This document shows, piece by piece, positions 1-1,667 of a stretch of DNA of 38,545 nt. This stretch comes from Deltaproteobacteria bacterium (GTDB lineage: Bacteria; Desulfobacterota; Dissulfuribacteria; Dissulfuribacterales; UBA3076): assembly GCA_011042225.1 (NCBI GenBank), contig DQXT01000070.1, forward strand, positions 1-38,545, written 5' to 3'. Below the pieces are notes generated by a model, which was not told the DNA's origin, did not search any database, and was given only the letters and a program-made list of their open reading frames with translations. Within the stretch, counting starts at the first letter, position 1. Each line of letters begins with the position of its first letter. A program made the translations under genes and the position numbers.

Positions 1-438
1 CGCATATCCCGCACCCCACCTGTATAATTTCTTGCCGACACCTGCAGTAAGAAAAGGGGACGGCTTTATACTCAAATAGGACTCATAGACATCTGCCGTA
101 TCAGTCCAGCCAAGATTATCCTGCTGTGCAGAGGCATTAAGAACCCAATTGAAACTAATTATCTCTCTGGTGTAATAACCGTCAATCTGAAGACTGCCGT
201 AAAAACGATCAACTGTAGAACGAGGTTGATCTAGATTTAGTATGGCAAAAGCAGAATCATGGTTAATATCCATGTGCTCAAACTTTAGTTCTGCATAACC
301 TCCGTTTTCCAAGGTCTTTCTTTCAAACTCCTCCAGTTCAAAACTGAATTCGTCATCTGCACGCAAGAGAGAGGAAGAGAGAAAAAGCAAGCCAAGCAGA
401 AAGCAGAGGAGACAGAAGCCGATGCTATCGCAATTCAT
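1..438 (-). CDS. Outer-membrane protein, N-terminal part (cut by window edge)
   Basis: This reading frame starts at an ATG at 438 and stays open for 146 codons to the edge of the window, so the C-terminus is missing. Residues 1-27 look like a signal peptide: a long Leu/Phe/Cys-rich hydrophobic run ending near LLRADDEF. The mature part alternates polar and aromatic residues (for example YAELKFEH, RFYGSLQIDGYYTREI, SYLSIKPSPFLTAGVGKKLYRWG), which suits strands of an outer-membrane beta-barrel. The start overlaps the stop of the upstream LolA-like gene by 14 bases, so translation is probably coupled. I do not recognise a named family. From context (Lol-like ATPase, permease and LolA-like protein upstream) I infer it is the outer-membrane component or client of that export operon. 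Confidence 0.72.
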   Translation of the reverse strand, partial: MNCDSIGFCLLCFLLGLLFLSSSLLRADDEFSFELEEFERKTLENGGYAELKFEHMDINHDSAFAILNLDQPRSTVDRFYGSLQIDGYYTREIISFNWVLNASAQQDNLGWTDTADVYESYLSIKPSPFLTAGVGKKLYRWGAGYA

Positions 439-1192
439 CAACCTTGGGCAGATAATTGAGGGTAAACACCTCGTCCGCCAGTTCTTTCTCTTTGATTTCG
501 GCAAAAAGCATTACGGACCGATACCCCCTATGGAGTGGGCTGTCCGTCTCAAGCATTGACGGTCTAATGATACCTTGGCCAAAATCCTTGATTTTCGTAT
601 AGTGCAGGGTCTTGATGAGCATGCCGCTGACCGCATAACACTCGATAGTAAAAGGCAAAAGGGTCTTTTTGTCTACCTTCATCTTTAAGTGATTATAGGC
701 AACTGAGGAGGACTTGGCCTTTAGTTCAAGCATATAGGTATCACCTTGGTCGATTATCTTTTCCGCATTATACTCTACACTATAGTCCAGTCTCAGAATA
801 TCGGAATTATTGAATATCCCGCCCACAACTGACTGAAGACTGGTGATACGTAAAGGTCTGCCTACATCAGGGATATAGAGCCACATATTATCACCCAGCC
901 GTAGAGTAGAACGGCCCTTTTCACTGGCCGGCGAGATAAACAGGGCTACCATTTTGTCCTGTCCCTTCTTAACCGTATAAAGTACAAACTCCTTTTTTGA
1001 GCCATCGGGCTCTATGTTGATCAGCTTCCGGTACATCTCATAGGACCGGGGCTGCATGTTTTTATCGACCTGGCTCAGGATATCGTTGCCATCCAGAGCA
1101 AGGACGGCGGGTGTCCAGAGAAAAAAAAGAGAAATGACTACCGGAATAGTAATCCGGCTAACGGTCTTGAATAATTGATTGAACCACATCAT
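425..1192 (-). CDS. LolA-like outer-membrane lipoprotein-sorting family protein
   Basis: This 255-residue protein resembles the exported LolA-like family (COG2834 / TP0789-like), whose members are periplasmic lipid or lipoprotein binders. The N-terminus has a hydrophobic signal segment ending near PAVLALDGND. The mature part carries family-typical stretches such as SPASEKGRSTLRLGDNMWLY and IPDVGRPLRI, followed by a beta-rich domain. I chose the ATG at 1192 because GGAG lies six bases upstream; an in-frame ATG at 1216 lacks such a site. The gene overlaps the NifX-like gene upstream by 35 bases and the outer-membrane gene downstream by 14 bases, so it sits inside a tightly coupled operon. It is not a classical LolA by length or position, so substrate transport is inferred from the family and from the neighbouring ABC exporter. 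Confidence 0.8.
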   Translation of the reverse strand: MMWFNQLFKTVSRITIPVVISLFFLWTPAVLALDGNDILSQVDKNMQPRSYEMYRKLINIEPDGSKKEFVLYTVKKGQDKMVALFISPASEKGRSTLRLGDNMWLYIPDVGRPLRITSLQSVVGGIFNNSDILRLDYSVEYNAEKIIDQGDTYMLELKAKSSSVAYNHLKMKVDKKTLLPFTIECYAVSGMLIKTLHYTKIKDFGQGIIRPSMLETDSPLHRGYRSVMLFAEIKEKELADEVFTLNYLPKVDELR

Positions 1193-1559
1193 AAGCAACT
1201 CCGGTTTGCTCTGCATATTCGATCTGGTAGTCCATCAGGGCCTGTTCCATTTTAGATCCGATACTACCAGCGATAACGAGGGTCACCCCTTTGTCGGCAA
1301 GAAATATAGCTGCCCTCGGCCCAGCGTTGCTGGGCTGATCGCAGAAAGGATTCTCTAAGGCCTCGATAAAATTACCTTTGCCATCAAAAAATAGAAAAAA
1401 CGGTGTTTTGGCAGCCCTTTGGCTTATGATTGTATCTTTTCCCGGCCCGTTGGTGGCCACGGCAATTTTCATTGAATCTGCAGAAGCGCTTATAGCAAGA
1501 CCCAAAAAAAAGAACAAAAATAAATTGACAATACTGGTTGACATGCTTCTAATTTTCAT
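1158..1559 (-). CDS. Secreted NifX/NafY-like (dinitrogenase iron-molybdenum cofactor domain) protein
   Basis: The protein has 133 residues. Residues 1 to about 27 form a signal peptide (Lys/Arg, then a Leu/Phe-rich core, then ISASADS). The rest matches the dinitrogenase iron-molybdenum cofactor domain (PF02579): MKIAVATNGPGKDT at its start, FFLFFDGKGNF, an ALENPF strand, then AIFLADKGVTLVIAGSIG and a C-terminal helix. Family members bind Fe-Mo or Fe-S clusters, or are of unknown function, and are normally cytoplasmic. The start at 1559 is set by GGAGG five bases upstream; an ATG four codons earlier lies too close to that site. No nif genes are nearby. It lies between the export permease and the LolA-like gene and overlaps the latter by 35 bases, so it is probably produced with the exporter. 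Its periplasmic role is unknown. Confidence 0.82.
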   Translation of the reverse strand: MKIRSMSTSIVNLFLFFFLGLAISASADSMKIAVATNGPGKDTIISQRAAKTPFFLFFDGKGNFIEALENPFCDQPSNAGPRAAIFLADKGVTLVIAGSIGSKMEQALMDYQIEYAEQTGVAYDVVQSIIQDR

Positions 1560-1667
1560 AGGTTCCTCCACTTAGCCTTTTAATCTGAAGGTAGGGAAAC
1601 AAGGGCCAAAAACTATAACGGTTTTATACCTCTCGGTCTTCTATCCTTCACCTATCTGTTTGCCGAC

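Follow-up and report, generated by a model that had tools for sequence, protein, structure and literature searches.

A NifX-like protein with a predicted export signal recurs as an optional component of a Lol-like envelope operon, with indications of single-gene exchange between lineages

A small NifX-like protein (PF02579), predicted to be exported to the periplasm, is encoded within a Lol-like envelope operon of some sulfate-reducing bacteria, and comparison of its gene with the flanking genes indicates that it was exchanged alone between three distantly related lineages. The gene was studied in a stretch of 38,545 nt from a Deltaproteobacteria bacterium (contig DQXT01000070.1, assembly GCA_011042225.1; Dissulfuribacterales; UBA3076), the whole of which is hereafter called the window. 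As listed in Table 1, five consecutive genes on the minus strand, in the order LolD-FtsX-NifX-LolA_like-OMP, lie within the first 3.7 kb of the window.

Table 1. Operon features, in window positions unless another locus is named
Feature	Position	Strand	Remarks
LolD-like ABC ATPase, 224 aa	2971..3645	(-)	PF00005; best NCBIfam model TIGR02211 LolD, 220 bits
MacB_PCD/FtsX-type permease, 414 aa	1668..2912	(-)	PF12704 + PF02687; TIGR02212 lolCE, 120 bits
Shine-Dalgarno stretch GGAGGAACCT	1560..1569	(-)	abuts ATG 1559; read as translation, part of MEEP
Exported NifX-like (PF02579) protein, 133 aa	1158..1559	(-)	predicted signal peptide residues 1-27, ASA|DS
LolA_like periplasmic carrier (PF17131)	425..1192, ATG 1216 possible	(-)	144.9 bits, cut-off 30; alignment
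Outer-membrane-type protein, N-terminal 146 aa	1..438	(-)	truncated at contig end; 436 aa in L034
Tandem NifX-like genes (L077, G091:C223)	2019-1633 and 1623-1126 of L077	(-)	second gene with an insert of about 32 residues

The open reading frame of the NifX-like gene matched PF02579 with an E value of 2.5e-11 and 44.1 bits, above the curated cut-off of 26.3, in agreement with its assignment in a preliminary description of this DNA, and profile matches to the two upstream neighbors confirmed the proposed operon membership with a LolD-type ATPase and an FtsX-type permease. No nif genes were found within the window, as had also been stated. The ATG of the OMP gene lies before the LolA_like stop, and the two genes overlap by 14 bases. 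For the LolA_like gene we favor the ATG at 1192, which has GGAG ahead of it in the window sequence and gives the 35-base overlap with the NifX-like gene reported earlier; the ATG at 1216 is also possible and would turn this overlap into 59 bases. The full-length outer-membrane-type protein returned no Pfam match in the profile search, an AlphaFold2 model built from four sequences had a pLDDT of 32.5, and its barrel is to be read as predicted.

The preliminary description allowed that translation might begin at the internal Met of MKIAVATN, which would leave the protein without a signal peptide. GGAGG lies 5 bases upstream of the ATG at 1559, a normal spacing, and a Shine-Dalgarno-like stretch was present at the equivalent start in all 21 exported genes tabulated. 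At the position aligned with the internal Met, just 12 of the 24 exported relatives have a Met, and therefore it cannot be the general start; together with the conserved upstream stretch, this speaks against the internal start, which we rejected. Signal-peptide calls were made by a rule-based reading of sequence features, by which the window protein carries two basic residues, a hydrophobic stretch and an ASA|DS site, at the cleavage position near SASADS noted before. In all 24 exported sequences the PF02579 core is preceded by an extension of 24-39 residues that contains 1-3 basic residues and a hydrophobic stretch and has small residues where cleavage could occur; this extension was absent from all 13 cytoplasmic homologues compared. 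In one genome, G423, the NifX body is deleted and the signal peptide plus about 20 residues are in frame with the LolA body (L046, 1351-2184), so the NifX body would be dispensable there and the signal usable; unless it is an assembly error, this fusion suggests that the NifX signal works. Export of the NifX-like protein to the periplasm is thus a well-supported prediction.

Looking up the protein in named genomes returned six full-length relatives (L034-L039), 61-88% identical to it, and one cytoplasmic homologue (L040). When 60 relatives of the window genome were searched, four other members of the genus were found to have the NifX-like gene at 65-88%; G005 and L034 yield an identical protein. 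Wherever contigs reach, the full-length relatives kept the order LolD-FtsX-NifX-LolA_like-OMP, the conservation of which the preliminary description had proposed to check. Within the window's genus the LolA_like gene was present in five of eight genomes, all five of which also have the NifX-like gene, and the remaining three have neither; it was not found in the other 23 relatives of the same search. The concern that the neighborhood might be unique to this genome did not hold, as the operon recurs in relatives and across the phylum sample described below. The proposal that the predicted periplasmic protein is associated with a Lol-like envelope transporter is well supported by the signal peptides together with a synteny that is kept across many genera.

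The phylum sample comprised 395 genomes, 73 of which were matched by the LolA_like profile at E <= 1e-20. We examined 55 core operons, namely 54 places at E <= 1.6e-82 and G294, in which the gene is split over two contigs; the permease-LolA junction could be read in all but G404, which lies at a contig edge, leaving 54. An exported NifX-like gene occupied this junction in 11 readable operons (G000, G154, G275, G186, G164, G126 on C285, G238, G091 on C223, G201, G234 and G294), one (G423) had the fused remnant described above, and 42 had neither gene nor remnant there, including G400, where the NifX-like gene lies just upstream of LolD. The G091 operon has two exported NifX-like genes in tandem, of 128 and 165 aa (Table 1), and in G181 an unrelated small exported, charged protein (L071) is encoded between permease and LolA_like. 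Seven weaker LolA matches were read; six had a visible permease, and in none of these six was there a gene at the junction. A profile of the exported sequences matched 147 of the 395 genomes at E <= 1e-12, and the loci read from that search (the operon loci and L118-L137) included at least two further exported members, G346 at a contig end and G340 apart from any core operon, the remaining loci read being cytoplasmic. On the core-gene tree the presence of the NifX-like gene required 10 changes (9 without one duplicated genome, L050/L138), compared to a mean of 17.1 with shuffled labels, and none of 500 shuffles was as low as observed. We conclude that the Lol-like envelope system is common in the phylum and that the NifX-like gene, judged by its distribution, is an optional part of the operon that recurs. 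Since nifD had no match in the window genome (G000) and was likewise undetected in several other carriers, a link to nitrogen fixation is not required, and we rejected it as a requirement. Restriction to syntrophic partners was also rejected for the gene itself, because carriers were found in some ten families of the sample; it is the exchange alone that is limited to three lineages.

Protein identity between the window and L006 was 76% for NifX, 87% for LolA and 91% for FtsX, and by such alignments the NifX-like protein evolves faster than the operon core. In every pair computed pN was below pS (0.12 and 0.28, respectively, for window-L006).

Seep-SRB1a and Seep-SRB1g are partners of methanotrophic archaea (ANME). 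In Table 1 of PMC10553843, as far as that paper was available to us, four of the six named relatives are present, JABZFQ, JAJSZO and JAJSZP as Seep-SRB1a and MAXM as Seep-SRB1g, and JAFDFO and JAGYNZ are not among them. Three lineages were compared: the window's genus, Seep-SRB1g (L036), and L035 with L037-L039 (Seep-SRB1a and one unassigned MAG). The available part of the same paper places Seep-SRB2 in Dissulfuribacterales, and our guess is that the window's genus may be Seep-SRB2.

Between L036 and the Seep-SRB1a sequences L037, L038 and L039, pS was 0.76-0.83 in LolD, FtsX, LolA_like and OMP, and 0.31-0.35 in NifX. Codon bootstraps were run on 15 loci (105 pairs), and a pair was flagged when its NifX pS interval lay wholly below the FtsX interval. 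Thirty of the 105 pairs were flagged: 27 of the 29 between the three lineages (window-L036 and L007-L036 were not), three of the six within the L035/L037-L039 group, all involving L035, none of the 10 within the window's genus and none of the 60 with or among the other five operons. At third positions, L036 and L037 had an identity of 0.41 through FtsX, 0.78 in NifX, 0.86 in the first 22 codons of LolA_like, about 12 of them overlapping NifX, and about 0.45 thereafter; with boundaries this sharp, the exchanged piece would be the NifX gene and little more. A clade of L036 with L037-L039 was rejected on the core tree (quick tree, AU p 4.6e-32), and the NifX tree joined L036 with L035 and L037-L039 with a support of 100/99. 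The converse test, on the short NifX alignment, was no more than suggestive: a grouping of L036 with the window genus, as in the core tree, was not rejected at 0.05 (AU p 0.0625). In the NifX tree the L035-L039 sequences were nested among those of the window's genus (support 93/97 and lower), which is a weak hint at the direction of transfer. Since the flanking core genes differ far more at synonymous sites than NifX does, our data indicate horizontal exchange of the NifX-like gene alone between the three lineages.

Synonymous-site constraint is an unlikely cause of the low NifX divergence, as NifX/FtsX pS ratios were 0.77-1.26 in the 60 pairs involving L042, L043, L047, L060 or L067, none of which was flagged. 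MAG contamination is also unlikely, for the swapped gene lies between lineage-typical core genes on a single contig, in separate assemblies. A gene exchanged among lineages that include ANME partners offers a specific candidate for a protein that is under common selection in such consortia.

Within the window's genus, L007 (G006) and L008 (G007) differ from the window with a pS of 0.43 in NifX versus 0.24-0.28 in FtsX, a pattern as if the gene had been replaced there too. The NifX tree also placed three cytoplasmic sequences inside the exported group, and a single origin of the 24 exported sequences had an AU p of 0.29. Near the exported sequences in this tree are the proteins of L141 (4503-5123) and L142 (4255-4839), which are NifX-like, cytoplasmic and have an SPRPGRARFY loop; the gene for a small membrane protein precedes theirs.

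What has been shown at the level of sequence is a predicted export signal, a conserved position, optional presence, tandem duplication, fast evolution and an apparent lone-gene transfer. We propose, giving it an even chance, that the NifX-like protein is an optional periplasmic adaptor or chaperone of a Lol-like trafficking operon. By analogy with known families, the core operon probably serves to bring a lipidated or hydrophobic substrate to the outer membrane: the ATPase and permease would extract it from the outer leaflet of the inner membrane and pass it to the LolA_like carrier, for delivery to the outer-membrane partner. In the least certain steps of this scheme, the NifX fold would be a scaffold that binds ligands or proteins and has no conserved Cys/His metal site, and the protein would act as an exchangeable adaptor or chaperone, tuning which material is carried. 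The exported member of G340, away from the core operon, and the 42 operons of 54 without gene or remnant at the junction argue against such a role.

The preliminary description had favored metal or cluster binding, and in that reading, which we consider doubtful, the protein would bind Fe-S, thioferrate or thiometallate material in a sulfidic, iron-rich periplasm, sequestering metal sulfide species or handing them on, and the transporter would remove them. The fold is consistent with this reading: the best PDB profile matches of the exported set were MTH1175 (1eo1, E 2.8e-16) and the other NifX-fold proteins 1rdu, 1o13, 1t3v, ORP 2wfb and 2yx6. In the available sections of the respective papers, a 3Fe-4S cluster is bound by the Di-Nase domain of MrpORP, a PF02579 relative (PMC6345978), thioferrate is linked to IssA, which has the same fold (PMC8351635), and a NifX domain occurs in the magnetosome protein FmpB (PMC4287615). 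The loop Arg is retained in 21 of the 24 exported sequences, in which Asn-Pro (70-71), Gly 62 and Gly 101 are invariant. Against metal binding, the alignment of these 24 has no shared His or Cys column (His in at most 4, Cys in at most 2), the FGR-loop Phe found in 10 of 13 cytoplasmic homologues is Ala in 21, changing the loop from FGR to xAAR, and the CXHFGHCE and CDH motifs, the proposed cluster ligands of MrpORP (PMC6345978, in part), are absent from the exported sequences. On the precedent of IssA and thioferrate, a ligand could be bound without Cys or His. The link of IssA to thioferrate runs via a cationic tail according to PMC6345978, and no cationic tail is seen in the window protein. 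Taken together, these observations weaken the metal-binding proposal. An AlphaFold2 model of the mature protein from seven sequences was poor (pLDDT 57.6), and thus we make no surface argument for any role.

It is unlikely that the NifX-like protein is instead itself the cargo, exported or displayed at the surface, for example in contact with a partner cell. Such a role would fit the rapid evolution of the protein, its duplication, its optional presence and its exchange as a single gene, as well as the different small exported protein in the same slot of G181 (L071); optional presence and exchange suit cargo as well as adaptor. The NifX-like proteins have no lipobox for LolA-type handling, however, no surface-retention motif was recognized by eye, and the slot is empty in most core operons. 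That the gene is a drifting passenger with no lasting operon role, as its presence in a minority of core operons and the loss of the NifX body in G423 might suggest, is very improbable given that, per site, every pair computed has fewer amino-acid than synonymous changes, that start, Shine-Dalgarno stretch and signal peptide are kept in the copies examined (21 and 24 for the latter two) and that the gene recurs at the same operon place. Extending the adaptor reading, one could also imagine, although we hold it to be quite unlikely, that the protein is a partner-interaction or niche module, passed as a single gene among sulfate reducers associated with methanotrophic archaea, where it replaces a resident copy or fills an empty operon slot, its fold having turned from cofactor carrier to periplasmic specificity subunit of an envelope transporter.

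LolCDE hands lipoproteins to LolA, and the operon resembles this system in its LolD-like ATPase, its permease distantly like LolCE and its LolA-fold carrier. It differs in that the ATPase and permease scores (Table 1) fall below the cut-offs of TIGR02211 (307.75 bits) and TIGR02212 (362.45 bits), in having one permease gene and an outer-membrane partner, and in a carrier that meets PF17131, not PF03548 (LolA proper); a profile search of the genome found one PF17131 gene and no PF03548 match. A canonical LolCE (C2, 390 bits, above the cut-off) is encoded at another place in the genome, and therefore the operon is a second, distinct system. No MacA-type adaptor or TolC-type channel of a MacAB-TolC system was found among the operon genes, the OMP being without a Pfam match. 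The window also contains, at 9292-30252, what we take to be a hopanoid/isoprenoid set, with squalene-hopene-cyclase-like, HpnH-like radical SAM, HpnN-like RND and MlaA/MlaC-like proteins, IspH, IspA and Dxs. In Castellaniella defragrans, according to the available part of PMC6394551, AmeA-D comprise an RND pump encoded with a LolA-superfamily DUF1329 protein and a DUF1302 outer-membrane protein, and are linked to monoterpenes. Both systems couple an inner-membrane pump to a LolA-fold carrier and an outer-membrane protein, and AmeA-D are likewise tied to hydrophobic compounds, but the pump is of the RND type there and ABC here, the outer-membrane protein and LolA subfamilies are others, and that account includes no NifX-like part.

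The NifX-like protein belongs to the same fold family as NifX, ORP and MTH1175, as its PDB profile matches indicate, and differs from these PF02579 relatives in its predicted export, its xAAR loop, its lack of conserved His/Cys and its Lol-like operon. It has no nif neighbors in the window, and G000 has no nifD match, which sets it apart from NifX of nitrogenase cofactor assembly. The MrpORP model scored 23.9 bits against 450, and a separate Mrp-NifX gene pair lies on C98. To a family regarded as cytoplasmic carriers of cofactors, our results add an exported branch that lacks the known ligand motifs, and they tie PF02579 to an uncharacterised Lol-like envelope system.

The closest parallel for a location outside the cytoplasm is FmpB (DMR_41100) of Desulfovibrio magneticus RS-1, in which a NifX-type domain is part of a magnetosome protein (PMC4287615, in part). 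Its relatives L010, L144, L145 and L146, which combine magnetochrome, PDZ and NifX domains as well, have an N-terminal hydrophobic anchor, and L010 and L144, the two FmpB-like sequences included in the NifX tree, fall outside the exported group. By inspection, some of the four adjoin cation-diffusion-facilitator-like and PDZ genes; their loci are probable magnetosome loci. Among the papers listed by a literature search of titles and abstracts, with subscription journals mostly outside its reach, none appeared to describe a secreted stand-alone NifX or NifX in a Lol-like operon, so the preliminary judgment of an unrecognized combination stands for the operon and not for the extracytoplasmic domain, which has its precedent in FmpB. 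From the available part of that paper, FmpB shares with the window protein a NifX-type domain that we infer to be extracytoplasmic, but is a multidomain magnetochrome-PDZ-NifX protein, while the window protein is a single domain of 133 aa; what appears to be new is an exported, stand-alone NifX in a Lol-like operon.
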